From Hyalella azteca (lineage: Eukaryota > Arthropoda > Malacostraca > Amphipoda > Hyalellidae): DNA of 64,000 nt. The DNA lies in assembly GCF_000764305.2 (NCBI RefSeq), contig NW_025942371.1, positions 1-64,000 on the forward strand, given 5' to 3'. Positions 949 through 37,218 of this stretch are shown here, piece after piece (position 1 is the first letter of the stretch; each line of letters opens with the position of its first letter). Below the pieces are notes generated by a model. The model worked only from the letters and a program-made list of their open reading frames with translations, was not told where the DNA came from and did not search any database. The position numbers and the translations under genes are program-made.

Positions 949-3900
949 GTCTGGCGACATGGAAGAAGTCACCACTGGTCACCTGGAGAAGCGTGAACTC
1001 CTGCAGCTGCGTAACGAGATGGCATCATACTTTGCCAGGCCACCTGCTGTGCAGGTAATTTCGAAATCTCGGTATTCCACTTCGATAAAATTCAATTAAC
1101 ATCTCAATTGGCAAATGTGTGTGTACTGCTGCCCAATATTTTTCAAATTTTCTTGCTGATTTGGCTTTAAACATTGATTTTGTTAATATTGGCTTTAATA
1201 CAATTATTCCTCAAATTGCGTTCTAGTTTCAATCTAGTTGCGTTCAGAATTTGATAAGATAAGAACGATCTGGAAGATAAAATAAAATAAGAATACATTG
1301 CAACCATCATATAAACTAAGATAAAATAGAATAACAAGAATCAATCCCTGCAGAAGGATGGGAAACTGGCCTTACCCTCGTTGCCCTCACCCATCGACCG
1401 TGAGAGGGCGTGTCAGGGCTGCCCTCACCTGCTGGTATGCACTGCCCTCAACACAGCTCCTCCCTCACCACCTCATGCCATGGCTTCCCTCGTGCCCGCT
1501 ACCCTCGCACATCTACAACCTGTCAGTTCTTTTATGATTTACAGTTTTTTCCATTTTTATTCATTTTCATTTCATATTTGTTTCATATCATGTCCTACTT
1601 TTCACATTGAGGTTTATTGCAGATTATAAGAAAAACCTTTGGTTTTTTGAATTTTATGAATTGACTTATCTCATTATCACAATATGTTATTGTTCTTTTG
1701 AGAGTAATATCGCCTATGTCGCCTGTGAAGCTTTTTAGCTTAGATACCTGCGCTCCGACGTTTTTTTATTGTGTGCTCTCGTGTGAATAAAGAATAAAAA
1801 AGTACTTTATTTATTATAAAACTTTTCTCCGGGAATGAATGATAAATTATATTGCGGATGATAACTTACAAAGGGAAATGAAAATAAATTACTAACATAA
1901 ATCTTGAAAATATTATTTCATTTCTTTTTCGCGATTAAATAAGAATTTTAAGACTAAATACATATCTGGCATATTCAAACTTTTTTAGATGATAATTGAA
2001 TATTTACTCTATTCGAATACTTGAATGTAGATCATATTCCTATACTTTGATGATATTTTTCGCAGAATGCACTGGAGTTCTTCCGGCACTGGTGTCTGCT
2101 GCTGCACGTGGAGTCCACGCAGAGCAAGCGAGCTCTCACACGCAGCCTCTGGTGCCAGGATCCCATCAAGCGGTGTGTTGTTATTAGGATTCAATGTAGA
2201 ATTTTACATTTTAAAGTTAATTTACCACCATCCATTCACGCGTGTTGGTTTAATTTTCATTTTAAAGTCATTCATGGTGCCTCTGTCTCTAATGTTATAC
2301 TGTTGAAACTGTTTGTTTTGTCTACCATATTTAATGATATTTTTCAATACCTCCTCCACTTTCATTAATACCCCTATCAGATCATTATAAAGATTAAACT
2401 TACACAATAGTGATCCTTCATCTAAATTTCCGTCACAAGGAACCTTCCTCTGCTAAACAAATCATCAAGCTTTACACGCCTTCATCACCTGCATGCCGAT
2501 CCAATCTGCACCCCGACGTTAATTTCTGTACTGAACGCGGCTAGGTGCCGTGACTTGGGTATCGCTGACGGACTAAAGAAACAGACCGACAGTGACGCAA
2601 AAACTATTATTAATGACTGATATATTTTTCTTTTTCTCTACATTTCAGCCTATTTTTCGAGTCTGGAGCGGCTCACCACTCTATACTGCATCACTGCGAA
2701 ATTTGAAAAGAAGAAAAAATTTTGTTCAACTTTCTGTATCCAACTTGGTGTTTTTTTACGTAATATTTAATTAAGTAAATTATTTGTGCAGTGAAAATGC
2801 AGGGGGTGCAGTGGCGTTCCTAAAGCTGAAGTGCAGCGTTGAGCAAGGAATATCTCAGTGGCTACACAGCTTCTCAAGAGCTTGTCCCAGTGAACTGCCA
2901 TCTCACTGCTCTGTACCGGAGACCATTCCTCCTGGGACATTTCAGGTCAGGCTCGCAGCAAGATCTGCTCTGCCGTTTACATCTAACAATTTATCTCTTA
3001 AATGATGAAAACTACAAATCACTGATGTACTGTTAGTAGTTTTTTTTGATGTACCAATGACCGAGCGATATATCCTGTGATAAATGAATAAATCTTTAAT
3101 GATTATATTCCCCGTTAGACTACTTATAATTTTTTAAGTTTGTTTATAATATTTTAACTGATGTTAAATCATCAAATTATTTTTACAGCCAGATCAATGT
3201 GAATATTATTAGTGCCACGTATAATGTGTTTATATTTATTTGTTTGATTACATACAGAATTCTTCCTATTTATTCTAAGCCTGTTTACAGGAGGGAGACC
3301 TGGTTGTAGTGTCCAGCAAGAAATGCATTGCTATCGCTCAAGGAGTTATTCATTCCTGTGACTCTACCGTCGTCTCCGTAATGCTAGACAGGTGAGCCTG
3401 CAATTTTGAAATTACACTTCAGATGCTTATTTANTGAGTATATACCATGACTACACCATCATCAGGGGCTACCCTGGTACAGGTGAGTATATACCATGAC
3501 TACACCATCATCAGGGGCTACCCTGGTACTGGTGAGTATATACCATGACTACACCATCATCAGGGGCTACCCTGGTACAGGTGAGTATACAGTATACGTA
3601 CCATGACTACACCATCATCGGAGGATACTCTAGTACTGGTGATGATCGTGAGTCTGGCTTAAGCTTTGTTGTTTATTCCCAAATGCTGCAAAAAAAAAAT
3701 TAAATTTGGCGCAGGAATTGTAATTCTTTCTCGCTGCCTTGATGATTCGACCGTCATTGAGAGTTTCCAATGCATGGAAGACGTTGTCTATGTTTTTAAG
3801 TTATATATTTCGATGAACCAGGAGCCCGTTTGAAATTTATATATATTCATATTCTAGGCGTTTAGGTTTACAAGTTATATACTCGTGTTTACATATATGA

Positions 3901-6900
3901 ATATATATTGCAGGCAAAAGTGTCTCTGTAGTGGCGCTAGTACAGGTGCTCGTCCTCATGGGGAAGTCTGTACTGCTGACGGCCTACACTCATTCAGCCG
4001 TCGATAACATCCTGCTCAAGCTCAAGGTATGTTGAGCCATGTAAACTTGCGTGTTTAGTGCCACAATTTTCCTTTGCTTACCTCCCTTTTGCGGTCGCCC
4101 TCTCCCGTCCGCCACCTCAGCCGCCCGCCGTGCGCACATGAGCTTCGGCGCAACCAACAACAGTGTGAAAATTAGTGCCATTCTTTCATGTAAATTTCTT
4201 CTCCTTGTTGTTGCAGGAAAGTTTGTCTTTGTTCCTGCCTTCCCTAGTTTTGGTACTTTATATATATTTTTACTGAATGCTTAGCAGTGCTTTCACGTTT
4301 TAACCTACCCAAAAATCTTGAGTTTCTCGGTCATGAGCCATATTCATTCCCAAATGCTTTAACAGGCACAGAAATTGTAGAAATTATTCTAAAAAATGTT
4401 TTTTAAAAATGAAAACGCAAAAATTCATGACCAAAATGCATGCACAAATTCATTTATGATGCCTATTCACTTGCACAATTTTTTTCAGGCAAAAGGCGTG
4501 GATTTCTTGCGTTTGGGTCGACGTTCCCGCATTCACCCTGAACTGCACGGCTACGCAGACGAGATCCTCACCTCGTCATTCACTGACGTCACGCAGCTGG
4601 CAGATTTCTACGCCAGTAAGGTACGAGGTATTGGGAAACTGTGGCAGATAATTTACGGGACTGAGCAGGAAAGATCAATACCGTACCGTACGTCCATCGC
4701 ACCGTACCGTACGTCAACCGTACTGTACCGTACCGTACGTTAATCGTACCGTACCGTGTGTCAATCGTACAGTACTGTATCGTACGTCCATCGTACCGTA
4801 CTGCATGTCCATCGTACCGTACTGCATGTCCATCGTACCGTACCGTGCGTCAATCGTACCGTACCGTGCGTCAATCATATCGTACCGTACGTCCATCGTA
4901 CCGTACCGTGCGTCAATCGTACCGTACCGTACGTCCATCGTACCGTACTGTGCGTCAATCGTACCGTACCGTGCGTCCATCGTACCGTGCCTTACGTCTA
5001 TCTTACCGTACCGTACGTCAATCGTATCGTACCGTACGTCAATCGTACCGTACCGTAAGGCTGTTGGAAATAATAGCAGATCCTTCTCGGTATTGATCTC
5101 TCCTACTCAATATCTTGAGTTCCCTGAGAACACTAATTCCGTTTTTCCCTATCATTGTTTAAATACATACAATGATTCTTATGATTTCGAAGAGTTTACA
5201 AGTTATTTTTTATTATCTGTTTGATTATCAAGTTGATTGATTTCAAAGGTGTCATTTACTCTTATTTTTAAAAGTGTGCAAATAACTCCATTTGAAGCAT
5301 TTCTTAATTTACTTTTCATTTATCAATTTAATACAATAAATGCTCAAAAGCGTAATTATAGTCCCTAAATGCCCTCATTTCTTGTTGTCGTGGTTCTACT
5401 ACTTGAGTAGTGTGGTGATCTCAGATACTGTGCTTTGATCTATAGTTTTGTTGTAGTGGTTCTACTACTTGAGTATTACGTTAGTGTTATGTATCTGAGA
5501 TACTGTATTTTGATGTACAATTTTGTTGTAGTGGTTCTACTACTTGAGTAGTAGTGTTTTCTGAAATACTGTGTTTTGATGTACGGATAGTGTGGTGATC
5601 TCAGATATTTTATTACTGAGCCTTGATGCACCGTGCAGGCAGTGGTGGCCACGACGTGTCTGGCTGTGAACCACGTGCTCTTCTCCAAGCGACGCTTCGA
5701 CGTCTGCATCGTGGATGAGGCTGCTCAGGTACCGCGCCTCTTTTTAATCTCATTAATATTCATTTTACTACAGATTAATATTCAATTCCCTCCAGTTTAA
5801 CATTCTATTTCTTCCATTTAATTATTAAATTCCTTCCAGATTAACATTCGATTTCTTCCAGGTAATTATTCATTTTCCTACAGATTAATATTCAATTGCC
5901 TCCAGATTAATATTTTTCTTTCGAGGTAATTATTCAATTTCCTCCATATTAATAATAAATTTCCTACAGATTAATTTTTAATTTATTCAAGATTATTATA
6001 ATCTCCTTAAATTTGATATTCAGTGTCTGTCAACACATTTCAATGCCGTGTAAACGACCAAAGTTATTCTTGTGGGTTGTGGCATACAGGAAGAAGTTGA
6101 GGCATCAGAAAAGTAATATAATTGATCTGGCATTGTGAGAGAGTCATCTTATTTAGCAACTCATAATTGACTACATTCCATCGATACTAAATTTTGTAGT
6201 CGTTCAGCGACGAATTTATTAAATCAATTTATACCTTAAATTTTGTAAACATAGTTTTTTATTCAAAATATGTTGTACGCTATCACTTGCAATGAAACCT
6301 GTCATTAAGTATAACTGTTTCGAATTCTTTACGTTGATTTATTCAGTATTGTTTGTTTGACAGGTATTACTTCCGGCCTGCACCGCCCCCTTGCTGTGCG
6401 CTGACAAATTTGTTCTTGTAGGAGACTCCCAGCAGCTCCCGCCTGTAGTGCAGAGCACCCAAGCCAGGTTTGTATTCACTCCTTTTATTTTATTGACGAA
6501 TGTCTTTTGTCAATAATTTTGCACCTGCGTTCTTCCATTTCAATGCAATTGTTCACACTGGTTATATAAAATATAACAGGAATCTGTCTGTAAAGAAAAA
6601 AATTTCTGTTGATGTATTATGAGGTGTACTAGAATCGGAATATTTACACTCGTAAGGTCCGTAAAATGTCTTCCTTCCTCCAAAAAATAATTATCCATGG
6701 CCTGTATTTAAATAAATTAATCTTTGTTTATTCAATGGCATGTCTGTATAAGTCAAAATCAGACTTTTGGGCAATGATACTCCATCCAGAAATTGGTACT
6801 CTATCTGTAAGGTACTCCATACAGAAAATTCCAGACTATTAATCTAGTTAATTAAATAATAATCTAAAATACTCCAGGTCTATGGGTCTGACGGAGACCG

Positions 6901-8989
6901 TGTTCAGCATCTTGGAGCGTGGAGGCAACCAGGACTGCTGCTCCAGCCTGACGCTGCAGTACCGCATGGCGGCGCCTATCATGCGCCTTGCTAATGCCAT
7001 CACTTACAACGGTCAGCTACAGTGCGCTTCTGACGCCTTACAAGACGCGCGCTTGCATCTGCCTTACTTCCAAGTACGTCTTTCACGCCTCACTAAAAGC
7101 ATGTCGTCTTATTTCATAGCCTGAAGTATACTTATATCGCATCCAAATTGAACAGATACTTTAGCTTTTATCAGTTATGCATCCATAGCTTAAGTTCTTT
7201 TCGTTTTGTCAGCAAAACTTCGACCGCAAAGACGGCGAACTATTAAATTTTGTATCGCAACAATTTCGCCATTTTATGCCATTTCATGGTTCTCTTCATT
7301 TCTCTCGTGATCATCTGAACAAATTTTTATTACGATGGACGATGCAGCCAACACCGTCACCAGGCAGATAAAGGCTGCGTGCTATTCACTAACATGGGTT
7401 CTTTTGATCTTTACGATATTTTTATCATTGTAAGCAAAACTTTGTAATGATATTTTTTCAGGAGACCAAGGTTACTGGACTTCCTGATTGGCTGAGGACT
7501 GCGGTGCAGCCTGAGCAATCAGTGCTGCTATTAGACACCGCGGGCAGCGCCTGTGAGCAGGAGTGTTCACTTGGTATCCAGAACACCGGCGAGCTGCACA
7601 TAACTGCTGCAATAGTGGCTACGCTGTTGCAGGTAAGACTGTGATGTAGTCAAAGACACAGTTGCCTATGTAGGCTCACTATGCTATGTAGGCTTACTAT
7701 GCTATGTAGGCTTACTATGTTATGTAGGCTTACTATGCTATGTAGGCTTACTATGCTATGTAGGCTTACTATTGTAGGCTTACTATGCTATGTAGGCTTT
7801 TTATGCTATGCAGGCTTACTATGCTATGTAGGCTTACTATGCTATGTAGGCTTACTATGCTATGTAGGCTTACTATGCTATGTAGGCTTACTATGTTATG
7901 TAGGCTTACTATGCTATATAGGCTTACTATGCTATGTAGGCTTACTATGCTATGCAGGCTTACTATGCTATATAGGCTTACTATGCTATGTAGGCTTACT
8001 GTGCTGTGTAGGCTTACTATGCTGTGTAGGCTTACTATGCTGTGTAGGTTTACTATGCTATGTAGTCTTACAGAGCTATGTAGGCTTACTATTACTTGTG
8101 GATCGTTAGAGTGAAAAATGTATTGATGATCATCCATTTAATGAAACGGCTGGTTTGGCCATGGTAACGAACATTGCATCCTTTGATATAAATACGTATA
8201 TGGCACCATTATTTCTTCATGCATACTTTAACTTACAAAGATCATAAACTAAATTTATTCTACTTAATCAGCTCTTGATTGTTTCTTATGTAGTGATATA
8301 TATCCTTTTACGAACAGTTCTACCCCTCTCGCTTAATCAATATAGTTATAGTGTGCAATACAGCGCTGTTATTAACGATTTCTGTACAGCTTGGAGTGCT
8401 CGGCGTAGACATCGGTGTGATCGCCCCCTACCGCGCCCAGGTGCGTCTACTGCAGGAGTCGCTGACGCAGAAGACTCGCGACTTCATAACGTCCCGTCAA
8501 ATTGAGATCACGGATCAAAAGAATGAAGATAAAAACTCTGGACATCTCTTAGCATCCGATGATGCTGACACGAGTGATGGAACTGTCCCCTATAATGAGA
8601 TTAAAAATAGTTGTAGGGATGGAGTAGATTCTGTCAAAAGGGTAGACTGTAAAGAACCAATTACTACTCAAAAAGTTTTAGAGGAAAGCAAAAAGGTAGA
8701 AATAAACACCGTGGACCAGTATCAAGGACGAGACAAGCTCGTCATCATATACTCGTGTGTCAGGAGCTGCACCGATCCTAAGAAAGCTGGAGAGCTTCTG
8801 CGAGACGAACGTCGTCTCAATGTCGCCTTGACGAGAGCTCAGCGTAAGCTCATTGTTATTGGTAACGTAAAGACTCTTATGATGTACGAGCCTCTCGACA
8901 AGCTCGTGTCCGTGCTCGGTGAAGAACAAATAATCAAAATGGACGCCCAAGATGGGTGGCAAAGTTGTTTCTCCAAGTCTTCATCTTGA
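949..8989 (+). CDS. DNA2: DNA2 helicase/nuclease, 5'-partial, 12 complete exons plus a Walker A exon fragment
   Basis: DNA2 is the nuclear and mitochondrial 5' flap nuclease/helicase of Okazaki-fragment processing and end resection. Exons read directly: 949-1054, 1354-1521, 2066-2172, 2792-2945, 3291-3391, [fragment 3449-3482], 3914-4026, 4489-4620, 5639-5728, 6364-6467, 6878-7073, 7462-7632, 8390-8989 (stop TGA). Phases agree except across the N at 3434. The exon at 1354 carries [10 protein letters not shown] (C-x2-C-x5-C), the iron-sulfur ligands that end the nuclease domain. Superfamily 1 helicase motifs follow in order: GYPGTG|KS (Walker A, split by an intron), [10 protein letters not shown] (Ia), IVDEAAQ (II), VGDSQQLPP (III), LQYRM (IV), [10 protein letters not shown] (V) and [11 protein letters not shown] (VI). 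Missing: the N-terminal nuclease exons, upstream of the window, and about 80 residues before Walker A. The last exon contains an extra hydrophilic segment before motif V. The assignment is very secure; intactness of the gene is not. Confidence 0.95.
3434..3434. other. Assembly gap or unresolved base (single N)
   Basis: This N lies 42 bases after the donor of the exon ending at 3391, exactly at the left edge of the 49-base array. DNA2 sequence expected between the end of that exon (...VSVMLDR) and [12 protein letters not shown] is absent, so the N probably marks a collapsed join rather than one ambiguous base. Confidence 0.8.
3435..3640 (+). repeat. 49-base tandem repeat carrying the DNA2 Walker A codons and a splice donor
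   Basis: Copies start at 3435, 3484, 3533 and 3582. The first three are nearly identical. The fourth has an insertion and several changes. Each copy contains codons for [12 protein letters not shown] (fourth copy: [12 protein letters not shown]) and then a GT donor (GTGAGT in copies 1-3, GTGATG in copy 4). The unit is not a multiple of three, so retained extra copies would shift the frame. Copies 1 and 2 differ at one synonymous site (ACA/ACT). The exon at 3914 begins GC-AAA-AGT and completes the P-loop as GYPGTGKS whichever donor is used. Confidence 0.9.
4676..5061. repeat. About 21-base minisatellite in a DNA2 intron
   Basis: Roughly 18 units built from CGTACCGTACCGT plus GCGTCAAT or ACGTCCAT. 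It begins about 55 bases after the donor at 4621. Because the period is a multiple of three, it creates open frames on both strands that code only for repeats such as SYRTVRQ. Confidence 0.92.
5384..5612. repeat. Three-copy tandem repeat of about 80 bases upstream of a DNA2 acceptor
   Basis: The core TTGTAGTGGTTCTACTACTT followed by GAGTA occurs three times, each time followed by a block with CTGAGATACTGT and TTTTGATGTAC. It ends about 25 bases before the acceptor of the exon at 5639. Confidence 0.8.
5745..6005. repeat. Degenerate repeat of about 25-30 bases directly after a DNA2 donor
   Basis: Units resemble TTCCTCCAGATTAATATTCA. It starts within about 20 bases of the donor at 5729. Most units contain a pyrimidine tract ending in CAG, so the array is a row of acceptor-like sequences. 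Confidence 0.75.
7672..8095. repeat. 18-base minisatellite in the last visible DNA2 intron
   Basis: About 23 copies of TATGCTATGTAGGCTTAC with a few substitutions. It begins about 40 bases after the donor at 7633. The 18-base period gives long open frames on both strands (LCRLTM, LHSIVS), which are repeat artefacts. Confidence 0.95.
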
Positions 8990-11047: not shown

Positions 11048-11102
11048 ATTTAAAAGTAAAGAAAATAGCCAAAAAGTTCACAATTTCTTATAAGAGAAAA
11101 CG

Positions 11103-11127
11103 TTTCGGAGTCCAGCTCCATCGTCAG
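11103..11127 (-). ncRNA. Hammerhead-ribozyme-like core in arm 1
   Basis: This is the same core as in arm 2, on the opposite strand: CTGACGA at 11127-11121 and GAAA at 11106-11103, separated by the same GGAG/CTCC hairpin. In this arm, bases downstream of GAAA can form a short helix TTTCT/AGAAA, but the base at the expected cleavage position appears to be G, which would disfavour cleavage. Confidence 0.35.
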
Positions 11128-11560: not shown

Positions 11561-11619
11561 CGTTTTCTCATATAAGAAATGGGGAACTTTTTGGCTATTT
11601 TCTTTACTTTTAATATCCT

Positions 11620-14842: not shown

Positions 14843-15012
14843 AAAAATATAACTCAGTACTCACTGCAGTGAGTGACAGAGAGCGCATTTTCTCGTCGAC
14901 GAAAACTTGAGGTCACGGACGGACGGACAGACGGAAGAACAGACAGACAGACAGACGGATATGGCGAGCACAATAGTGCATTTTTTTCATAAATGAGAAA
15001 ATGCGCTAAAAA
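14843..15012 (+). mobile_element. Dispersed GCGCATTTTCTC element, copy A
   Basis: Layout: AAAAAATATAACTCAGTAC, then the perfect palindrome ACTCACTGCAGTGAGT, GAGAGCGCATTTTCTCGTCG, a GACGGACGGACA-type microsatellite, ATGGCGAGCACAATAG, and GAGAAAATGCGCTAAAAA. The last block is the inverted partner of GCGCATTTTCTC, so the element can fold back on itself. Five further copies lie in this window in the same orientation. No coding capacity. Confidence 0.88.
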
Positions 15013-16852: not shown

Positions 16853-17445
16853 CTATGCATGTCTGTCATACGTGTGGGTTATACATGTCTGTCAAACGTG
16901 TGAGTTATACATGTCTGTCACACGTGTGAGTTATACATGTCTGTCACACGTGTGAGTTATACATGTCTGTCATACGTGTGAGTTATACAGGGTGAACCAG
17001 AATTAACTGACCCTTTTAATTTGTTAATAAATAAAAAACTAAGAACGTTATGAAGTTGAAACTTGTTTTATTTAAAAGAAGGACATTTTTATGGTAATAT
17101 TGTATCCTAGTTTTTAGGATACAATAACTAACTAGGATACAATATTACATACAATATTTTTACTAATACATATTATTAATACATAATAAATATTTTAACT
17201 AATACAATGATAAAATATTGTAATAGGATACAATATTACCATAAAAAGGTTCTTCTTTTAAATAAAACAAGTTTCAACTTCATAACGTTCTTAGTTTTTT
17301 ATTTATTAACAAATTAAAAGGGTCAGTTAATTCTGGTTCACCCTGTACATGTCTGTCACACGTGTGAGTTATACATGTCTGTCATACGTGTTGGTTATAC
17401 ATGTCTGTCACACTTCTGAGTCTCACATGTAGGCCACGTGTAGGT
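16853..17445. repeat. 26-base minisatellite split by a MITE
   Basis: Units are CATGTCTGTCACACGTGTGA plus GTTATA, with five copies before 16988 and about three after 17345. The last copies degrade into related CACGTGTAGGTCA-type sequence. Removing the MITE and one TA joins the two sides into an intact unit. Confidence 0.93.
16988..17345. mobile_element. Mariner-type MITE, 358 bases, with long terminal inverted repeats
   Basis: It begins CAGGGTGAACCAGAATTAAC and ends with the exact reverse complement. The inverted arms extend about 120 bases each with only a few mismatches. Both sides are flanked by TA, the target duplication of Tc1/mariner elements. The interior is AT-rich and non-coding, so an outside transposase would be needed for movement. 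It sits inside the 26-base minisatellite. Confidence 0.93.
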
Positions 17446-19643: not shown

Positions 19644-22600
19644 CCAACAAATGCCAAGGATGACCCACCTTTGGGCTGTTACCCACCGCCCGGGGATCAG
19701 GCGCCCCCCTCCCAGCCCCAGTTCCGCGCCTACAAGCAGCGGTGGCTCGTCATGCTGGTCGTGGTGCTGCTCAACCTGTCCAACGCTGCTGTCAGTCGTT
19801 ATCTTTCAAATTAATTTGCTTATTTAAGAATGAAACATCACAATTTATAGTGATTTTTACATCAAAGCTGCCGTCAGGCATTATCCTTGAATCGATTGTT
19901 CATTTCACATTCATATTACAATTTTATATCAAATCTACGATCAGTTGACTTCGTTGGTTAGTTTTAAAATACCATATCACAATTTCAATTTGAACTATAT
20001 ATCACTACTACCAAAAGTCATTATACATAAATTACTTGGTTAATTTAACAGGTCTACATACTGATTCTAATTTTTCACTAAAGCTGCCGTTGATTATTTT
20101 CATTAATGATTATTTTTAATATTGTCATATCTCCATTTGTCAAATTTTGCATCAAAGATGATGTCTAATAACTTGATTCATTTAGCAATACAATATATCC
20201 TATTCTAATCGAATTTTGCATCAACGGTAGTGCCGGTAATTACTGAAGTTTCTTTTGTATTACATTATCTCTAATTTTAATTAAATTTTGCAATGCAAAA
20301 TTAGCTTCAGTAAGTTATTATCGTCAGAGTAATTGAATAATTAGGCAATGCAATTTCCCCATTGTGATAAAATTTACGTTAATTCTGCCGTCAATCATTA
20401 CAGTCGAATTATCTTGGCTTGTCTAACAATGCTAGAAAATCTGCAAGAAAATTTTCCTTATTCGAATTGCATAGTTGAGGTGATATGAATTTTTTACATC
20501 AAAATTCCTTCATAATTCAAAGCAATCAAGTAATTTTAATGATTTTTTTAATTGTTACAGTTCCATTGACTGTCATGTAAACGTTTTAACAATGTTTCTT
20601 TGCGTCATTTCTTCCACCATTTTACGTTCGATAAGATGAAACAATTTCCTTGCAGATGTGGATCACATACGCACCTGTTGCAACCATCGTACAAGATTTC
20701 TATGATAAATATGATGGTCAGGTTAATTACTTCTCCGTGGCTTACCTCATCGTCTCCATGCCCTTTGTGTTCATCTGCACCTTCGTCGTGAACAGATATG
20801 GACTTGGCCCGACTGTGAGTTGATTTCTGAACGACTCATTTATTGGGATCATATTTGTTATCAAGGTTTTGTTATCATATAATTTAAATGAATTCGACTG
20901 TGAGTTGATTTCTGAATGATTAATTTATTAGGATCATATTTGTTATCAAGATTTTGTTATCATATAATTTAAATGAATCCGACTGTGAGTTGATTCCTGA
21001 ACGATTCATTTATTGGGATCATATTTGTTATCAAGGTTTTGTTATCATATAATTTAAATGAATCCGACTGTGAGTTGATTCCTGAACGACTAATTTATTG
21101 GGATCATATTTGTTATCAAGGTTTTCTTATCATATAATTTAAATGAATCCGCGCGCGACTGTGAGTTGATTACCGAACGACTAATTTATTGGGATCGAAG
21201 TAACTTATTTCAAGGTTTTGTTATCATATAATATAAATGAATTAATTTCAACGGCTTCATCCTTGCCATTACGCACTGGCTGAAATTAGAGTGTTATTGT
21301 ATAAATAGTAATGCACATTTTGCCTTTGTGATAGTTATCAAGACCCATTTTTGTCCAAGTCAGCTTCCGTTCCGTGCTAGTGCTGAGGGCAAGAAAGTGT
21401 CATTGTTTAAAAATAGCACATCAATTTGTATGAGTGCACCATACATTGAATGAAGAGAAATGGTTTTTCTGTGCTAAGAAATGGTTCCCTGCTAGTGCTG
21501 AGGGCAAGAAAGTGACATTGTTTAAAAATAGCAAATGGTTAATTTTTATGAGCTCTTCATACAGTGAATGGTGAGCAATGGTTTTTCTGTGCCGGCAGAT
21601 ACACTTAGGCGCGGCGCTGAACTGCGTGGGGTCGGTGGTGAAGGCGCTGGGCACCTCAGCCTTCATAGAGAGCCAGGACACGCAGTACGCAGTCAGCCTT
21701 ACGGGACAGGTGACGAAAATAATATATACATATGCAACAACATTAAAGCATTATACAACACCAACAACCAATAATGTATAAAATATTATTAATGGATAGT
21801 ATAAGTAACAACATCAAAGCCTGGCAAACTGGTCAAATGTTCCTCTTACAAATAACAGGCTAGCGCAATATTCCTTGTAAGCATAGTACAACATAAAGTA
21901 ATACCTTCGAAGCAACTTGAATGACGCTTGAAACTAATGTCATCTAAAATGAATTACTGCAGAGAATATTTTTTGCATAAATATTGTCGTGATAAATACA
22001 CGAGTTTATTTAATATTGACTACAATATATCATTAATGCAAAGATGCAGGGAATTAAAAAGAATTTATTTTTTTTTGCGCGAGCAATCAATGCGAGTGCT
22101 CAGTAACTTACTAGAAAACATTCGACAGACCGACTTGCGTGATGGAAAATCCCAAAGCATCTTGATGGGGTGATCATTATCTGAAAATACGTAATTATTC
22201 TGGCGCTAATCAATGATAAAAGATAAATGATAAAGTTTCAGGCGCGAAGGTCTCGATGAGCTTTTCCTAGCTTATGAAGAACGCTTTTGCTTAGCAAGCG
22301 TTCATTTTCGGGCGCTTTGATGGTGAGATCATAGTCTGCCAAAGGCGTTTTTTCTTATTCATTGTATATAGATTGTTTCATCATAGCCATTGTATATAGA
22401 TTGTTTCTTGCCTCTTACACGAGTTAAGCCGTTATATATGGACTCTTTAAAACCTGTATTATAATTTAGGCGATTGTGGATTGTTTATTGGCAATTACAC
22501 TATTTAAACCATTATGAGCAAATTAGTTATTGCCTCTCACACGAGTTAGGCCGTTATATATGGATTTTTTCTTAACTTATACCTAATTTAGAGTTTTAGT

Positions 22601-25600
22601 CTTTTAGACAATTAAAAAAATGAATGTTTCTAACCTCTTACTTGATTAAGGCGACTCTATATTGATTGGTTTTTTGCCTACTCCAATTTCTGCCAATTTT
22701 TCGGAAGTACCGCTATTACTTCACTGATTAAAATATAGAAACAATTCCGCATTCGTCGTATGTCTTCATATTTTATGTCTATTGCAATAAGATACTCGTA
22801 ATTTTAATCTATGATGAAATGTATCGCCGCCATGGCGCAGTCTTTCCTTCTCTTCATCCCCACGAAGGTGTCGCAAGTTTGGTTCCCGGACGAACAGCGT
22901 ACCATCTCAACGACAATACTTTCCATGTGTGAGTTATTTCAATCGTGTTCTCTGCGTGTGTTATCTTGTTCTTTGCATGCACAATCATGTTTTCTTTGTG
23001 TTTGATCACGTTCTCTACTTGCACGATAGTATCAATGTGTACGATCATCAACGTGTATCAACGTGTACTACGTGTATCAACGTGTACTGCGTGTATCAAC
23101 GTGTACTACGTGTATCAACGTGTACTGCGTGGTGTATCAACGTGTACTACGTGTATCAACGTGTACTGCGTGTATCAACGTGTACTGCGTGTATCAACGT
23201 GTACTACGTGCATCAACGTGTACTGCGTGTATCAATGTGTACTACGTGTATCAACATGTACTACGTGCATGATCATATTTACGATAATTTTTTGCGTGAA
23301 CGATGCATTTATCGTGCGTAGTTTCGGCTACGAGCCTCTGGTTTGCATGTTTAACTTTATGTTATACTCCCGAGCTTCACTGTTGAAGCTCGTATGCGTA
23401 TAGATGTTGGAATATTCCTTTGTATTAGGGCAATGAAAAACAACATGTTTGAAGATTTAATTGTATCATGAAATTTATGAAATCCAATATTATGCATATA
23501 ACATGAATTTTCCTTTTATTGAGTAGCAACGCAAAGATTTTTTCAAGTTGGCGGAAGTGTTGACCAATTCTTTCGATTATTCTTACTCTTTCAAGTTTAC
23601 CGACTAATGATGCAATATAACTTATAACCATGTCTGTGGGTGATGATTTTCTTAGCGTAAATAATTATCTGGCATATAACGAGAGAGCGGCCGAGGACGA
23701 ACAGTAGGTGAGAGACTCTTCATGGCGTTTACACCTTGTCACAGTCAAAAATATATTAATCTATTTAAGTGTTTCGAGGTTTTTTGATAACATATTTACA
23801 TTGGAAATACCTCGAACTCAATTATTTATTTTTGTCGCTAGCCAACCCCTTGGGGATCGTTTTGGGGGAGGTTATAACCCCCGCCATCGTCAGGGTCCCC
23901 CAAGACGTGCCCACGAACAACTACGTCTGGATGGGCTTTGCCATCCTCACCCAGTGCTGCACCATCGCTTGCATCACCAGGTTAATATGAATTCATTTAG
24001 GGCAGGGAAAATAAATTATTTTAAAAAATATGTGTCGTATAATCACTCTCAAATGACGCTTGTTATTTAGATAAAAAACTGTTTTCTGATTTGTAATAAG
24101 AAAGATGAATGAGGGTCTAAGGACCTTACTATTTCAATAGCATTGATTGTAATAAAATGTACATATTACAATCTTTCGTGTAATAAGGATTTTTGTAAAA
24201 TTGTATAAAATATTTTTAAATTTGACCAAGCAACATAAAAATTAACATACTGTATCATACTCCTCATAAGTTGTTAATAACCTTGCTTTAGATCGGTGAT
24301 ATTTCTGCAATGTTAAATTGCACAAAAAAATATAACTCAGTAACCACTGCAGTGAGTGGCAGAGAGCGCATTTTCTCGTCGACGAAAACGTGAAGTCACG
24401 GACGGACAGTCTGACAGACAGACGGACGGGCGGACGGACGGACATGACGAGCACAATAGGGCCTTTTTTCCATAAACGAGAAAATGCGCGTTCTGTATAT
24501 TTAGTAGGAAGTATCACTGTCACGGACGGACAGACGGACGGACGGACATGACGAGCACAATAGCGCATTTTTTTCCATAAATGAGAAAATGCCCTAAAAA
24601 TGTGTTGCAGGTAACTCACTGCTACAATTCTGCTGTGCTTAACCGCCCGGCCTCCTCGCCGATTCTAACCAGAAACTGGCGCACAGAGCTGGGATCGAAC
24701 CCACGCCTCTCTGCGCCAATCTTGGTACTCTGAACTTTAAACACTGTCATTACACGTCACCCAGCAGATGTTGTGTGTAGTGGGTTACTCAACGGTGAGG
24801 GCTCATGCAGCATTCATTATGCGTGATAAAAACTATTTATTTATTAATATGTGTGATTCAATGGCCGTTTAAATTATAGAAATTTGACGGGCATAAGTGA
24901 AATTGTGTTATCATGCGTGATAGAGAGCCTATAAATTTAAAACAATTTGTCTGCTCAGAGGCAAAATTGTAATCTACAGTCTGGAAAATGGGTGGAACTT
25001 TATCCAAATATTGACGCACTTTTCTTTTCTGGGTTATCGTGACTCAGTTTGATCCGGAATAGGACGTACTAGTGCCCCACGTACGCTCGGTGCTCGTGCT
25101 GAGATAGAAAAAGTGTGCATTTATTCGGACAATGTTACAAATTCATTTTTCTGAGCGTGAATAATGCCCCAAGCCATTATGAAACCTAATTGAAACCGAT
25201 GTGAAATTTTGATTTGAGATTTAGTGAAGTGTACGATGTATAACTGTTGTGGTCGTGTTCTTAGTAGGCGATCTTGTTATATTGAAGATGCATTTTTGGT
25301 CACGATGTATATTAATAATTTACGATGTAGGTATATTCACAAGTTACCGTGTATTTTCATGAGTTCATAATTGATCGGGTAGAACCTTCCTGTTTTTTGA
25401 GCAGACGTTCAGTGGCTTGTCAACTGGCCTGATGATCTTGGTAGGGTTCGCCGGATCAGCGGTCTTTGGTATCTACGTCGACAGAACCAAACGCTTCACT
25501 CCGGTGTGCAAGTTCTGCTACGCATGCGCCTCCATTTGTGGCATCGCCATGTTGGAAGTAAGCTTTATTTGTAAAAAATAATCGCTCATTGTATTTTTCA

Positions 25601-26797
25601 CCGCGTTCTGGTGATAAAAAATATGAGTAGTCATCCGTTTAAACTGTTTTAACCTGAAACTTATATCATGAATTTAAGAAAAAATTCATGTTTGATAACG
25701 GAGAAAGGTAATAATCCGATAAACAACATCGATAGATTATAATACACGACAGATATTTTCATAGGTCATCCTAAATTTCACCAAAAAATGAAACGCAACT
25801 TTACTTTCTACGCGCAGTTTTTCCTCGTGCCGGACGCGAAGGCCGCCATCCTGATCTTCAGCAGTTTGTTCGGCTTCTTCGGCGTAGGCGGCTACCCCAT
25901 CGGGTTGGAGTTGGCGGTTGAGGCCACATACCCCGTCGAGGAGACATTCAGCACTGCCTTCATATTCCTCGGTGGTCAAGTCTTGGGTAAGCTCATCCTT
26001 ATTCACGTGTCAGATGTATGTACATCATGGTTGAACTAGTATAAGGTTCATGGTTGAACTAATATACCCTAGTATACTAGTAGTATAAAACTAAAACTAG
26101 TATAAGGTTGACCCATCACAAGCCCATTTTTGCGGATGTAGCTCGTTGTTCGCCTGTGACGTCATTGATCTCAGTGACGTCACGGGCATTAACCAATCAC
26201 CGAAATGCGATCAAAGCAGTCAACCAATCCGTCATGGGAATGACGGCCGTTTGTTAACGTTTCTTGATCTCAGTGACGCAACAAAAAAGCTGAACTGAAA
26301 GACGGAAATCCTCATAGTTCTACCTTATCTAGTCCAACCATGTATGTATACATGGTTTAGCAACTCGTTATCATGTGATGAAATAGAGCTGAATTTTATT
26401 TTGCCTTGCCAGCTCCTTTTTCATACCTTTTCTAAAGTTGATCAATTGAATTTACCATCAAAACTTATTAGCGACCTTAACATTAAATAGTTCAACTAAG
26501 TTAAATCGATGCACAAGCGTGCATCATGATAATGTTGTATTTGTTGCAGTGTCGATCGTAATGCTGATGTGTGTGCTCGCAATCCTCGTCTGCATCATGA
26601 TCCTGTTCCTGGACACTCCCTACAAGAGGCGAGAAGCAGAATTGCAGCACCGGAAACCAAGCGAAGGAGTCGTTAGAAACGAGTCTTTCAAGAGTGAATC
26701 TAAAGCTTCTTCCGTTAACAGTTCTGTCAACGGAACAATAATAAAAACCACAGCGCCATGTCTACCAGATGATGTAGTCTTCAACGACCGATTATGA
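19644..26797 (+). CDS. SLC49A3: SLC49-family MFS transporter, closest to SLC49A3/MFSD7; 5'-partial and incomplete
   Basis: A membrane transporter of the major facilitator superfamily. SLC49 relatives (FLVCR1/2) carry haem or choline; the substrate of SLC49A3 is not established. Exons: 19644-19790, 20656-20814, 21599-21709, 22841-22928 (start uncertain), 23842-23980, 25405-25557, 25818-25986, 26550-26797 (stop TGA). Family landmarks: RWLVMLVVVLLNLSNAA (TM1), MWITYAPVATIV, FSVAYLIVSMPF (TM2), LNCVGSVVKALG, VWFPDEQRT after TM4, NPLGIVLGEVITPAIV (TM5), GIYVDRTKRFT (loop after TM8), GLELAVEATYP and a last TM before the cytosolic DTPYKRREAE tail. No start codon was found; the first exon is open at its 5' end. 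The exon ending at 23980 leaves phase 2, but the exon at 25405 needs phase 0, so the TM7 region is missing. About 40 residues expected between 25986 and 26550 are also absent. It is either a real gene with exons I could not see or a gene damaged by insertions. Confidence 0.85.
19850..20450. repeat. Old, degenerate repeat of about 70-100 bases in a SLC49A3 intron
   Basis: A motif like ACATCAAAGCTGCCGTCA followed by ATTA and a T-rich stretch recurs at about 19860, 20078, 20217 and 20378, with weaker copies between. It begins about 60 bases after the donor at 19791. Confidence 0.55.
20811..21243 (+). repeat. 85-base tandem repeat that includes an exon end and splice donor
   Basis: Five copies begin at 20811, 20896, 20981, 21066 and 21157 (the last after a GCGCGC insertion). 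The first copy starts with the final bases of the exon, GACT, followed by donor GTGAGTTGATT. Later copies repeat the same junction, CGACTGTGAGTTGAT, inside the intron. All five therefore carry an equivalent-looking 5' splice site. Confidence 0.92.
21366..21598. repeat. Two-copy repeat of about 115 bases ending at the SLC49A3 acceptor
   Basis: GCTAGTGCTGAGGGCAAGAA begins near 21377 and near 21492, followed in each by GTGNCATTGTTTAAAAATAG and a block ending AATGGTTTTTCTGTGC. In the second copy this last block is the polypyrimidine tract, running into GGCAG, the acceptor at 21598. Confidence 0.85.
22340..22680. repeat. Degenerate repeat of about 50-80 bases in a SLC49A3 intron
   Basis: The block CATTGTATATAGATTGTTTC and variants ending in TTGCCTCTTACACGAGTTA recur about five times with heavy divergence. 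Confidence 0.6.
23010..23275. repeat. 18-base minisatellite after a SLC49A3 donor
   Basis: About 13 units of GTATCAACGTGTACTACGT and the variant with TACTGC. Degenerate related sequence (GTGTTCTCTGCGTGTGTTAT, CACGTTCTCTACTTGCACGA) extends back almost to the donor at 22929. Confidence 0.92.
24326..24600 (+). mobile_element. Dispersed GCGCATTTTCTC element, copy B, with duplicated 3' half
   Basis: Starts with AAAAAAATATAACTCAGTA. The part from TCACGGACGGACAG to GAGAAAATGC occurs twice, separated by about 30 bases. It lies in the intron where the TM7 region of SLC49A3 should be. Confidence 0.88.
24612..24790 (-). mobile_element. tRNA-derived SINE-like fragment
   Basis: On the minus strand GTGGGTTCGATCCCAGC is a perfect RNA polymerase III B box, inside a GGCGCAGAGA...TCTGTGCGCC helix. 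Its 3' side runs towards element copy B. No convincing A box or clean boundaries were seen, so this may be a degenerate tRNA pseudogene. Confidence 0.45.
26015..26353. mobile_element. MITE-like insertion with inverted ends in a SLC49A3 intron
   Basis: The left end ACATCATGGTTGAACTAGTA and the right end, read in reverse as ACATACATGGTTGGACTAGA, both lead into TAAGG, with about 80 percent match over 30 bases. The interior holds two TGACGTCA palindromes, at about 26156-26182, and ATTAACCAATC. It occupies the intron in which about 40 expected residues (TM11 region) were not found. Confidence 0.65.
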
Positions 26798-27038: not shown

Positions 27039-27178
27039 AAAAAAATATAACTCAGTACTCACTGCAGTGAGAGAAAGAGAGCGCATTTTCTCGTGGACGA
27101 AAACATGACGTCGCGGACAGACGGACATGACGAGCACAATATGACATTTTTCCCATAAATGAGAAAATGCGCTAAAAA
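27039..27178 (+). mobile_element. Dispersed GCGCATTTTCTC element, copy C
   Basis: Same layout as copy A, but with the microsatellite reduced to a few units (CGCGGACAGACGGACATGAC). This is the shortest full-length copy in the window. Confidence 0.88.
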
Positions 27179-28420: not shown

Positions 28421-28590
28421 AACAAAAAAAAATTAGATCAGTACTCACTGCAGTGAGTGACAGAGAGCGCATTTTCTCGTCCGTCCGTGAAGTCACGGAC
28501 GGACGGACATGGCGAGCACAATAACGCCTTTTTCCCATAAATGAGTAGATGCAAAAAATGAGAAAATGAGCATAAATGAGAAAATGCGCA
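28421..28590 (+). mobile_element. Dispersed GCGCATTTTCTC element, copy D, rearranged
   Basis: The left part is normal up to GCGCATTTTCTCGT, then shortened into the microsatellite. The right end has the ATAAATGAG...AAAATG block three times in succession, so the 3' end was duplicated locally. Confidence 0.82.
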
Positions 28591-29732: not shown

Positions 29733-29827
29733 GCAATTTCCATTAACACGCTATTTCCATTAACACGTTATTTCCATTAACACGTTATTTCCATTAACAC
29801 GCAATTTCCATTATCACGCAATTTCCA
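29733..29827. repeat. 17-base tandem repeat
   Basis: Five units of ATTTCCATTAACACGTT with small changes (CGCAATTTCCATTATCACG). Confidence 0.85.
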
Positions 29828-31379: not shown

Positions 31380-34300
31380 TTAGATAATCGGCGAATAAAA
31401 CGCTATAGAGGCTACATACAAGATATTTGGACTAAATACCGCTATACCTGAGGCGGGAGGATCAACCTGCAGAACCACAGCGCTAGAAGGACCGCTGGCT
31501 GGAGCCACGTAAGGCTCGACGTCGCTTCTATCTCTGTTCTTCTTGCTCTTCTTCTTTTTGACGCTGCGCGTGACCGAGACAACCTTCAGCTGATCGTCCA
31601 AACACTCGTCAGCTGCGGGCTGCATTGCGGCCGCAGCCATGGCGGCTTCAGCATCACTTGCATAAACGTGACCGTCAGCAGAGGCATTGATATCGCTGTC
31701 AGCAGATGAGTGGACATAACCATCGGCCGCCCCGTGGACTGTCGCAATATCAGCACTCGCACGCCTGCTGCTGTCCGAGCTGACGGCTACTACTCCATCT
31801 TCGCTGACATCATCGTCAGATAGACGCCCGTACCTGTAGAGAATTGCAATAAATACCCACTGAAAGGCTAATACATACGCATAAAACGATGACAAGAAAG
31901 TAATGAAAGTTCAAAGTTCACTAATTTTGATGGTGGCACGCGTAGATTAGCCACAAGGCAAGAAATGATGTTCACGGCAAACTCAATCAACAGCTACTTG
32001 AAATTGTGTATTTATACAACTTTTGTAGGGTGAACTAACACAAAAATAAGTGGGGAATAACACGCAAGTCAGATTTATTTGGAGATACTGAATGATAATC
32101 TTGACACTGAATATTGACATTATTAACATGACAATCTAAAATTACAAATAAATTACTTAAGACGTTGAGAATTACTTAAAACTTCGAGAAGATTTGAGTA
32201 ATAATGCTAGGCCGCCCGGCGTTTGTCAGTGTTTTAATTTATAGCTTTAATTTTTATAGGAAAAGTTTGCGAGATGCCTAGATTCTTCTGACACATTCCA
32301 GTTCCAAGCTAATATTTTCCATTTCACCCACCGATTCACCCAATGTAAAATATTACAACTAGCGAATCGCTTCTCTCAAAAATTTTATTAACATTAATAC
32401 TTACAGGTAAATAAAATTTCATTCCCCCACTACCTCTGAAATCTTGATTTATCACCCTCAGTTTGAGCAGCAGTGCATCATGATATAATACAGCTCACCG
32501 CTGGTGACGCCTGGGATTGTTTTCTCGAGCCAGGCGGGTGGCCCTGGCAAAGGGGTTCTCTCTGTTGTTGGCAAAGGTGCCGGACGACACCTGGGTGGCT
32601 TGCTGGAGCAGAGGAGCCCTTTCGGTCACGTGGTCCAGATCCTCGTCATCGGAGTCGTCTAGAGGCTCCCCCGCAGTCCGCACTTTCTGTTTGCAAACCG
32701 GACACACACGACGTCGTTTGGTCAGCCATGGGTCGATGCAGCGGCTGTGGTACGCTGGAATATCAGATGCAATTAATTTAGTTAGATTAAAATTCAAACA
32801 GAACTATTCAAGTGCACGTGCCCAGCAAACATTCAATACATTGAAAATGAAATTATTAACACCAGTACTAGGGACATGTTAGCAGAAGATGCCTTATAGA
32901 AAAAACAAATTGAGGGTCAAAAAGGAAGCTACACATTGAGAAGAAGTGGATTTGAAAATATTCAGATGAACATTATTGAGTTTTTAAAAGAGTAAATTTG
33001 AATATGTTTCATATAACTGATACTAATAACATAAGATAGAGAAAGTAGTGAGCTTTTAGTAGAAAAATTATTCTCTACCAAAGCGGTCAGTAGAGGGTAG
33101 TATAACACAATGTGATCAGACAAACAACACATGAAGGTATAGGTATATAATGCATGCATGAAAATATAATGGAAAAACTCCCAAGATAAGAGGCACTGCA
33201 CGTAAGAGTTCCTGAGGTAATAATCACAGAACACGAAAGTTCTTACGGTAAAAACCACTGACCACGAAAGTTCTTACGGTAAAAACCACTGACCACGAGA
33301 TTTTCCACGGACACAACCACTGATCACGAGATTTCCCACGGTAAACACCACTGACCACCAGATTTCCATCAGTGACAACAACTGACCACAAGATTTCCCA
33401 CGGTAACAACCACTGATCACGAGACTTCCCACGGTAACAACCACTGACCACGAGATTTTCCATGGTAACAACCACTAATCACGAGATTTCCCACGGTAAC
33501 AACCACTGACCACAAGATTTTCCACGGTAACAACCACTGACCACAAGATTTTCCACGGTAACAGCCCACAAGATTTTCCATGGTAACAACCACTAATCAC
33601 GAGATTTCCCACGGTAACAACCACTGACCACAAGATTTTCCACGGTAACAACCACTGACCACAAGATTTTCCACGGTAACAACCACTGACCATAAGATTT
33701 TCCACGGTAACAACCACTGACCACCATATTTCCATCAGTAACAACCACTGACCACAAGATTTCCCACGGTAACAACCACTAACCACAAGATTTTCCACAG
33801 TAACAACCACTGACTACAAGATTTTCCACGGTAACAACCACTGACCATAAGATTTTCCACGGTAACAACCACTGACCATAAGATTTTCCACGGTAACAAC
33901 CACTGACCACCATATTTCCATCAGTAACAACAACTGACCACAAGATTTTCCACGGTAACAACCACTGACCACAAGATTTCCCACGGTAACTACCACTGAT
34001 CACGAGACTTCCCACGGTAACAACCACTGACCACAAGAGTTACCACGGTAAGAACCACTGACCACAAGATTTTCCACAGTAACAACCACTGACCACCAGA
34101 TTTCCATCAGTAACAACAACTGACTACAAGATTTTCCATGGTAACAACCACTAATCACGAAATTACCCACGGTAACAACAACTGACCACAAGATTTTCCA
34201 CGGTAACAACCACTGACCACAAGATTTCCCAAGGTAACAACCACTGACCACAAGAGTTAACACGGTAACAACCACCGACCACGAGTTACCACGGTAACAA

Positions 34301-37218
34301 CCACTGACCACGAGAGTTCCCACGATAACAACCACTGACCACGAGAGTTCCCACGGTAACAACCACTGACCACGAGAGTTCCCACGGTAACAACCACAGA
34401 CCACGAGATTTCCCATGGTAACAACCACAAACAACAAGTGCAGGTAAGGTGAGCAGCACTAACCGTGGTTGCAAGGCAATATTCTGAGCTTATCGCCGTC
34501 CAGGTAGTCGTCGAGGCATATGGCGCACATGTCGTAGGTGTCCACCCCAGCCTTGAACTTGTGCAGAGGGAGGCGACGGAGGGCGCGCCATGACAGACGG
34601 TGACGCATGCTGCGCCGGTAGTCCCGTACACACTTCACAATCTGAACAAAGAAGGGTTTAATTAAGATAAATAATTTAATTACAGTAATTTAATCAAAGT
34701 AATTTAATCAGATCAATTAAAATAAATGGATATGATTAGAGGATGTAGAGTGAGAATCAATAACAATTCATAGCAAAAATTTTTTTAAGCTCTTTAAATA
34801 AATTAGCATACGAATCAAAACTTATTTTATGCTCTGCAGAAATAAATGCACATTACTACTATTATCCTTTCACATCTAAGGGCATGGAATAACTTGTTAA
34901 TTTATGAGCTGATAGGAGAGATACACATGAAAGACTTACCATGCAAAGAAGCATGCCTACAAAGCACACAGCTACGGTGATGGCGAACGGCAGAAGATAA
35001 CTTTCAATGTCAGGTAAATCGGCGCTGATGATCACACCAAACCTGAAAAAATATCAACAAGTATGAGTAGATATAAATTACCAGTTTCACTACAGGAATC
35101 TCAAAACTTAAGTCTTAAACTGATTGAAGAATTGTTTGTTGAAAAATTGATTGTTTAGTGTAATGAACAATACATGTATGCAGAAGCTGTTATTTCAGTT
35201 ACCTTCTATAGTTGAGGAACAGCAACTCGAGGGTATCACCATCAGATTGCCCAATAAACACCGATGGGATTGTGATGTTCTCTGCATCCTTATCACTAGC
35301 ATTCATGGGTTCTGCCATTACATGTGAGGAGTACATTAATCATAAATAAATGCAAAGTGGGGTAATCTTCAGTAAATCGTATATAACTGCAAAATATCAA
35401 GATGTCAAAACATTTTCAAGATGAAGCATTTCTGGCGGAATTAAAAAGAGCTAACAAATCACAATTAATAATTGCATAAAATAAATTCCAATTATTTAGG
35501 TACTCACCTATGTCATCTGATCCAATATTCATGACAATGACAGCAGCAAATCCAGCATTCTGTGCATTCTGAACCTTCTCAGCAAAAGTGCAATTTCTTC
35601 GGTGAATGAGCACAACCCAGTGGGCATAGGCAGGGGAGATGTTGTCAGGGAAAATCGGGGGCCCTTTGATAGCCTGACAAGCATCGGGTGGGTGGGCCTT
35701 CACAAGCAAGCCCTGAAGAATTGCATCAAGAAATGAGACAAAGAATATTATACTCTCTTGAACAGAAAATTTACATCCTGGTTGAGTACGGAAATGAAGA
35801 AAGAGCTTGATTTCTTCAATCAAGTAAAGATAAGAATACAAGAAATAATGTGTTAGCTGCCTAGATAACTCATCATATGTATTTGGTCACTTAAAATCTC
35901 CACAATGGCTTAAAATCTCCACCAGAAAGACACACACCAACCTCCATTTTGTGTTTGTTGCTACATTATCATGCATTTGAATGAAATTTTTAATGCGGAA
36001 TACAAATTTAACCATCTTTCCATGTTTTTCTTGAAAGGAGGAAGTAGCAATACCTATTTAATTAATTAAAGTGATTTGATGAAATAGAAGTACCCCGTAA
36101 ATTGAATCTGGATAGCTACGTACCCTCAACATTTGCATCTTTAAATAGAAGTTACATACCGGTATACAATTTTGTTAAGTGTAGTGACAGTATTTTGTAA
36201 ATTTTTCAACTGCGATTTACTCCTTGAATAAGCAAAATTTTCAAAAATCCACAGGAGAATATATATATTAGAATAGTTCATACTTTCTGGTAATGGAATG
36301 AGATATTTAAATTTTTGCATACAGTACCTATATTGATGTTTGCCCATAAACGGGTTGTGATGGGTAGTACGGTATAGCTGAATCAAGACACAACTGCAGG
36401 GATGTAAAATTATTCCTACACCTTGCTAAATATTGATCAATAACTTCAACAAACAATCCAGAGGCTAATTTGAAACCAGAACCTATCTATTCCAAGCTCT
36501 TACAAGAAAATAATGGAACATTTTTTAGAAAACCTCTTGATTTGCAGGCAGTTTTATCTCATCAATTACAAAAATATAATGCAAAGTTATATTGAATCCT
36601 TGACAGTAAAGATGATTGTGAGATACATACATTAACTGCTTTCTCAGTGAGAGAATAAACAAACCTTGAGACCAATGAAAGAAAGTTCTGGTCCAAAAAT
36701 AGATGCCATGTCAGCCATGACATCATTTGTCTTGTTGAGGATTCGGTCAACTACCACAACCTCAGCCTTGACATGGGGCACAATAACCCATGACAGCCAC
36801 TGAAAAATATTTACCATGAAAAATTTTAGAAATAAATACAATCTTATAACAAAGACAAAATTACTGCATTGAATGTTATATATTAAATAAAATAAAGTTG
36901 TACAAATATTTCTATGTAGGAGTTGCACATGAATTTTATGTCATACAATGGTCACATTATGCTATCTTTTATAGAAAGAACTCTAATAAAATTGGATAAC
37001 TGTAGCTATTCAGTGTAGACTTGTATAGAAGCCTATAAGATGAAGATTATAATTTTTTTGGCATTATGAAGATTTTATTCAACAGAAGGACGACTAATCC
37101 AGGAATAGAAACAGATTAGTATTAATTAAGAAAGAGTGTAAAGGTGGAAGTTGGGCATTGGACAAAATAAAATCATACTCACCAGCAGTGCTGCAGCTGT
37201 TCTTGATAAAAATGTCAT
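31380..37218 (-). CDS. RNF13: RNF13/RNF167-type PA-TM-RING E3 ubiquitin ligase, complete
   Basis: An endosomal/lysosomal membrane E3 ligase. Exons on the minus strand: 37218-37183 (ATG), 36799-36665, 35712-35508, 35311-35203, 35042-34940, 34641-34464, 32754-32499, 31833-31380 (stop). All junctions are GT-AG and the phases agree, giving 491 residues. Residues 1-24 form a signal peptide (MTFLSRTAAALLWLSWVIV...). The PA domain (about 55-160) contains HWVVLIHRRNCTFAEKV and GFAAVIVMNIGSDD. A TM segment lies at about 177-199 (LLPFAITVAVCFVGMLLCM). The RING-H2 spans 235-276, with ligands in CAIC, PCNH, YH, RC and CPVC. After it come DDSDDEDLD and TERAPLL, an acidic dileucine sorting signal as in vertebrate RNF13. 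The last exon is rich in Asp, Ser and Ala with a KKKKSKK block, and diverges from known tails. A possible donor at 31457 (TCAG|gtatag) leaves open an alternative end. RNF13 and RNF167 cannot be told apart by eye. Confidence 0.93.
33240..34437. repeat. 31-base minisatellite, about 38 copies, in an RNF13-like intron
   Basis: Units are CACGGTAACAACCACTGACC plus ACAAGATTTTC. A variant carrying CCATCAGTAACAA recurs at roughly 180-base intervals near 33732, 33917 and 34106, a higher-order structure. The array ends about 26 bases from the exon 6 donor (on the minus strand it begins just after the donor). Open frames across it are artefacts. Confidence 0.96.

Follow-up and report, generated by a model that had tools for sequence, protein, structure and literature searches.

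Minisatellite arrays at and behind 5′ splice sites in introns of the amphipod Hyalella azteca

The first 64,000 nucleotides of contig NW_025942371.1 of the amphipod Hyalella azteca (assembly GCF_000764305.2), here called the window, contain the genes DNA2, SLC49A3 and RNF13, in which we resolved 22 introns, and a fourth gene (Table 1). We describe minisatellite arrays in these introns that begin at, across or shortly behind the 5′ splice site (donor), and a corresponding bias elsewhere in this assembly. Splice sites in the window were called from sequence and phase and then compared with related proteins for RNF13, SLC49A3 and DNA2 (for DNA2, a human sequence). Arrays were detected with Tandem Repeats Finder (TRF) and by gapped self-alignment with shuffled controls, and all offsets are counted from the first intron base. 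The analysis covers one species and one assembly with 41 introns (22 in the window, 18 in a second contig, C100, and one further intron), and the paralogues among the genes are only partly independent.

A first-pass annotation of this DNA had pointed out arrays immediately downstream of donors in about a third of the introns, with units unrelated to one another and a placement far from random. The results showed that all of the arrays it named are present by TRF and self-alignment (those of introns 4621, 5729, 7633, 20815, 22929 and, on the minus strand, 34463), and the proportion agrees as well, with such arrays in 7 of the 22 resolved introns, or in 8 when the weak array at 26014 is counted. 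The degenerate array at intron 19791 is real: with lax scoring its self-alignment runs from −9 to 527 with a score of 67, no score above 35 having arisen in 100 dinucleotide shuffles, and strict scoring returns only the block 337-502. Of the 9 array-bearing introns, 8 have an array that begins no more than 60 nt from the donor and 2 have one that ends no more than 60 nt from the acceptor (null expectation 2.0 each), and none of 100,000 random placements reached the donor count of 8. This count takes blocks of at least 100 nt, uses the lax alignment for intron 19791, includes the weak block of intron 25987 and leaves out F5; with the strict block for intron 19791, 7 of 9 are near the donor (P = 9 × 10−5). 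In the six introns with the strongest arrays, the main array always starts within 54 nt of the donor (random-placement P between 10−5 and 10−4). The summed donor distance of the six main blocks is as small in 1.5 × 10−5 of trials, all six fall within 60 nt in 9 × 10−5, and the largest block is closer to the donor than to the acceptor in six of six introns (P = 0.015-0.028).

We then sampled 20 stretches (L001-L020) of the same assembly outside the window, 200 kb with 175,367 non-N bases, one of which has repeats in common with the window at 94.5-95.5% identity. The sample is rich in minisatellites, with 45 clusters of TRF score at least 150 (0.225 per kb; 9% of bases, counting N). An ab initio exon finder trained on the window genes returned 45 internal exons in the 200 kb. 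Within 60 nt, arrays were found at 4 of the 45 donors (null 0.86, P = 0.0065) and at none of the 45 acceptors (null 0.84, P = 1.0). At 150 nt the two sides were equal (5 each, null 1.9, P = 0.03 each) and at 500 nt acceptors were ahead (10 vs 6 for donors), so the donor excess is confined to close range; acceptors may have a weaker array excess of their own, slightly further off.

Three minus-strand genes that have their exons in common, here X, Y and Z, lie in the first 50 kb of contig C100. A Na/H-exchanger profile matches them below its cut-off, and we read them as probable 'SLC9B-like' paralogues. Eighteen introns were fixed in these genes and run through the window pipeline. Nine of them bear arrays, five with an array no more than 60 nt from the donor and one with an array that close to the acceptor (null 2.4, P = 0.029), with P = 0.013 for the donor-minus-acceptor difference; the donor P is 0.003 at 30 nt and 0.15 at 100 nt. 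The X12 intron measures only 198 nt, its repeat takes up almost all of it, and it is counted at both donor and acceptor. In gene Z the array of exon 6 spans the donor with units of 127-132 bp, each holding 27 nt of exon, and has junction copies at +127, +259 (24/24) and +386 (22/24), and exon 2 has a donor-spanning 337-bp duplication, 161 bp of it identical, with a junction copy at +337 (24/24). The paralogues X and Y have no such array in the introns that follow Z exon 2 and Z exon 6; two other introns, both of gene X, contain arrays that begin at +4 and +27. A donor-spanning array was also found at an exon for an AMP-binding domain (PF00501) in stretch L001, with junction copies at +163 and +291 (23/24). 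Taken together, the position-linked origin proposed in the first-pass annotation is supported both in the window and beyond it in the same assembly.

The arrays fall into two classes at one position. In six of them the exon/intron boundary is spanned (3435, 19781 and 20809 in the window; Z exon 2, Z exon 6 and L001 elsewhere), and the first-pass annotation is corrected in that the units of the three window arrays include the exon end and the donor. Where the unit holds both, up to five donors stand in a row. All 13 junction copies found in the six arrays (24-nt window) have kept the GT, although copies were found by junction similarity, which favours intact ones, and the donor-copy scores equal or approach that of the first donor in five arrays (2.06 vs 5.04 in the decayed array at 19791). 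The arrays at 4674, 5739, 7666, 22940, 26014 and 33179 do not span the boundary and are hence not filed with the boundary-spanning 'mirage' minisatellites discussed below. Non-spanning arrays start 4-54 nt inside the intron, and the 5′ edges of the two classes, taken together, make up a single series between −47 and +54 relative to the donor. No cross-similarity was detected among 16 arrays at E 0.01, in agreement with the earlier statement that the units are unrelated. Judging by their identities, which lie between 98% and 62%, the arrays are of different ages.

Table 1. Arrays, repeats and genes described in the text (offsets from the first intron base; exon part, the portion of a donor-spanning unit that lies in the exon).
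Feature	Position	Strand	Unit	Exon part	Offsets (nt)	Remark
DNA2 array	3435-3640	+	49 bp	36 nt		36 nt exon end (Walker A) + 13 nt intron start
DNA2 intron 4621-5638, first array	4674-5057	+	21 bp		54-437	donor copy absent
DNA2 intron 4621-5638, second array	5382-5607	+			762-987	acceptor side
DNA2 intron 5729-6363 array	5739-6022	+	22 bp, 66-bp higher order		11-294	
DNA2 intron 7633-8389 array	7666-8093	+	18 bp		34-461	
SLC49A3 intron 19791-20655, decayed donor-spanning array	19781-20317	+	lag ~82 bp	9 nt		62% identity
SLC49A3 intron 20815-21598 array	20809-21242	+	85 bp, 5 copies	5 nt		exon end GACT + donor GTGAGTTGATT
SLC49A3 intron 20815-21598, acceptor-side duplication	21369-21592	+	~115 bp		555-778	ends 6 nt before acceptor
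SLC49A3 intron 21710, weaker mid-intron block	22347-22665	+			638-956	
SLC49A3 intron 22929-23841 array	22940-23276	+	19 bp		12-348	degenerate, then clear
SLC49A3 intron 25987-26549, weak repeats	26014-26179	+			28-193	best score 33, null maximum 24
RNF13 intron 34463-32755 array	34439-33179	-	31 bp, ~40 copies		25-1285	
L001 donor-spanning array	L001 5037-5385		128 bp	25 nt		
C100 gene Z exon 6 array	C100 42797-43311	-	127 bp	27 nt		
C100 gene Z exon 2 duplication		-	337 bp	47 nt		
DNA2	exons between 949 and 8986	+				AAA_11 and AAA_12 above cut-offs, Dna2_Rift below; PDB match to DNA2
SLC49A3	19644-26797	+				multi-exon model, homology-checked
RNF13	37218-31448	-				multi-exon model, homology-checked
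Fourth gene	41542-40663	-				one coding exon; four relatives of similar length

At the DNA2 array the annotated repeat is present (TRF match 98% over 3435-3589, with the copy after 3589 diverged), and its donor copies read CAG or CTG followed by GTGAGT, with further copies at +49 and +98. The placement of its donor at 3483 needs a correction. That site is 49 nt past an N at 3434 by which part of DNA2 is concealed; the array takes in every donor copy that can be seen, and the one used in splicing may be in the gap. The N is single, follows the exon that ends at 3391 and precedes the Walker A repeats, and the DNA2 part expected there is missing. The array 20809-21242 runs from a few nucleotides inside the exon to offset 429, and in intron 19791 a copy of the donor region at +82 is identical at 18 of 24 positions. 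In a direct test of the 22 window introns, the donor region is copied within the intron only in 19791 and 20815, and the acceptor region only in 20815. Three repeats absent from the first-pass annotation, two on the acceptor side (introns 4621 and 20815) and one mid-intron (21710), were added. Two further RNF13 introns gave no TRF row, and Rfam and tRNA scans gave no matches.

We also compared the non-spanning units with the flank of their own donor. Direct similarity was not significant in four of the five non-spanning window arrays tested (P = 0.52 for the array at 4674) and marginal for 22940 (P = 0.055). Descent of the units from the donor flank thus has no direct-orientation support for those four, and the uncorrected reverse-complement P values (0.019 for 4674, 0.067 for 33179) were given no weight. 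The 18-bp unit of the array at 7666 contains CTTAC, the reverse complement of its own donor's GTAAG, probably by chance. A window-wide enrichment of GTRAGT in array units (6 of 26 rows vs 1.04 expected, P = 0.0005) was likewise given no weight because a mobile element divides one array into two of these rows and a further two are arrays that had already been picked.

The suggestion that introns grow by repeat expansion was supported. Array-bearing introns of the window have a median length of 865 nt, or 397 nt minus the arrays, compared with 366.5 nt for array-free introns (n = 12), and the corresponding medians in contig C100 are 891, 491 and 591 nt (n = 9). The length difference of array-bearing introns is accounted for by the arrays, and two introns are present with an array in gene Z and without one in its paralogues X and Y.

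We consider it probable that introns are lengthened from their 5′ ends by donor-anchored tandem duplication, which would be tolerated since the first donor would be the one used. Short DNA at intron starts would be duplicated in tandem, repeatedly, in H. azteca; a duplication starting in the last 5-47 nt of the exon would copy exon end and donor together and give a mirage-type array, and one starting 4-54 nt into the intron would give an array directly behind the donor. The first donor would stay attached to the intact original exon and later donors would fall within the intron, and if the spliceosome commits to the first-transcribed donor, the extra copies would be intronic and harmless. There the arrays would expand, homogenise and decay, and introns would grow from their 5′ ends. 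Use of a junction copy would add a stop codon (12 of the 13) or a frameshift without a stop (1 of the 13), and therefore the first donor would normally have to win; a frame argument from unit lengths alone was dropped, two copies lying at multiples of three, and each copy was checked instead. A duplication across an acceptor would expose the wrong acceptor first and would be expected to be tolerated less often, which fits the fewer acceptor-spanning duplications found (X12 of contig C100, identity 0.84, and the decayed Y12, 0.74). The second array of DNA2 intron 4621 weighs against this explanation, as it ends 31 nt short of the acceptor and is a counter-example to donor anchoring.

Tolerance might also act alone, with arrays arising anywhere in genes, surviving behind donors and being removed at exons, branch points and acceptors. 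Arrays are common everywhere in the 200-kb sample and donor-spanning copies outnumber acceptor-spanning ones, as such a filter would have it, but it predicts a uniform placement of non-spanning arrays, whereas, of the 12 introns in which all arrays are non-spanning, 8 have one no more than 60 nt from the donor and 1 has one equally close to the acceptor (null 1.8 each, P = 3 × 10−5 for donors; P = 6 × 10−5 when the 6 nt next to the donor and the 40 nt next to the acceptor are closed to placement; the 12 exclude the five donor-spanning introns, X12, Y12 and F5). Because arrays without a donor are biased as well, a tolerance filter would be insufficient and some mutational anchoring at the donor would be needed, and we regard selection alone as improbable. 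That a minisatellite-rich genome yielded one window that looks ordered by accident is more improbable still: the finding was picked by eye and the numbers are small, but the same bias is found elsewhere in the assembly and units contain exact donor copies.

The anchor could be a transcription- or splicing-coupled fragile site, at which an R-loop, U1-bound nascent RNA or a stalled polymerase or fork leads to breaks and repair by local duplication. The bias tracks transcript orientation in genes on both strands, and the 14 donor arrays are enriched in T on the sense strand (AT skew −0.24 vs −0.07 for 27 other introns, taking the first 300 nt of each; P = 0.0004), which may reflect either a process linked to transcription or selection for intron-like RNA; counting signs only, the difference is between 14 of 14 and 21 of 27 (P = 0.08), and the AT skew of nine other intronic arrays is mixed (five negative, four positive). 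The R-loops named in the first-pass annotation were not supported, as the mean sense G-C skew is 0.006 (positive in 9 of 14) and the classical R-loop signature, a sense G excess, is therefore absent. Array presence is also unrelated to donor strength (P = 0.62), which led us to reject a weak-donor hypothesis and speaks against a fragile site as well; we think such a site rather unlikely to be the explanation. The T-richness of all 14 donor arrays and the intact GT in every donor copy found, with the search bias given above, would also suit arrays that are kept by selection, their U-rich repeats or extra donor copies aiding U1 recruitment. However, the arrays have no sequence in common, array-bearing donors are not weaker, paralogues manage without arrays and the one at 19791 has decayed to 62%, so that we give a function of this kind little likelihood.

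Boundary repeats of a similar sort are described in two amphioxus papers (PMC3087553, PMC3902484), where minisatellites at exon/intron boundaries were named 'mirages' in Adh3 and also occur in globin, troponin C and PGBD5 genes. According to these papers their units measure 10 to ~160 bp, many with AG/GT splice signals, degenerate cases occur, either boundary can be involved, and the authors of the globin work propose mirages as seeds of new introns. Some of the H. azteca arrays likewise span boundaries and carry splice signals, and donor and acceptor boundaries are both affected. The H. azteca set differs in that it occurs in a crustacean, in that the donor side prevails and in that many of its arrays start 4-54 nt behind the donor and do not contain it; mirages are further characterised by regular splicing and haplotype length variation, and the H. 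azteca arrays are known from the sequence of one assembly. The window thus has true mirages at three places, together with a wider donor-biased set outside the mirage label. Tandem genomic duplication is presented in PMC3443670 and PMC2891723 as a recognised route of intron gain. Duplication of AGGT resembles the H. azteca arrays in being a local tandem duplication with splice-site sequence, but here existing introns grow; no new intron position from a duplicated exonic AGGT was found in contig C100, where intron positions are common to array-free paralogues. Introners and introner-like elements (PMC4457414) are repeats that add intron sequence, as the H. azteca arrays do, but the latter are mutually unrelated and a new intron was not seen. 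There is no report of boundary-spanning arrays in crustaceans, or in other arthropods, among the matches listed in the open-licence literature, and no passage on splice sites turned up in the excerpted text of a Daphnia tandem-repeat paper.

The RNF13 exon translation is identical (100% over the whole query) to HAZT_HAZT010081 of H. azteca and has a 74% match in a Trinorchestia longiramus protein, and in the annotated RNF13 protein P0001 the exons are joined across the array intron as expected. The SLC49A3 model is without two conserved protein segments, and its exon at 22817 has no preceding AG; because of this imperfect model there is more doubt about introns 21710, 23981 and 25987 than about the rest. 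The segment 24756-24791 (VTQQMLCVVGYS) resembles the end of a missing exon, and SLC49A3 is either a decaying gene or an assembly fault. Elsewhere in the window, a 358-bp near-palindromic element at 16988-17345 (84% self-complementary over its length, with 40-nt perfect inverted ends and TA flanks) splits a 26-bp minisatellite into 16854-16987 and 17346-17421. It looks like a miniature inverted-repeat transposable element, and a search at E 1 × 10−5 found no second copy, either in the window or among the 200 kb sampled. A dispersed repeat with an ACGG-type tail, recognised by similar translations, occurs at 14864, 24347, 27051, 28437, 48124 and 62476.

Intron growth and the sites at which tandem repeats originate are old questions for which few systems have been caught in the act. 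Donor-anchored arrays of varied ages in about a third of the introns offer many replicates together with paralogue controls, and make it possible to test directly if DNA is marked for duplication by transcription or splicing; from the natural rows of identical donors, the rule of 5′ splice-site choice could be read in RNA. More tentatively, as a possibility we hold to be somewhat less likely than not, H. azteca, and perhaps amphipods at large, may have an ongoing transcript-oriented mutational process that duplicates DNA at 5′ splice sites, the product of which would be present in about a third of introns at some stage between a fresh identical array and a 62% relic. Such a process would be the main source of intron lengthening, and its T-rich rather than G-rich signature would point to a cause other than classical R-loops.

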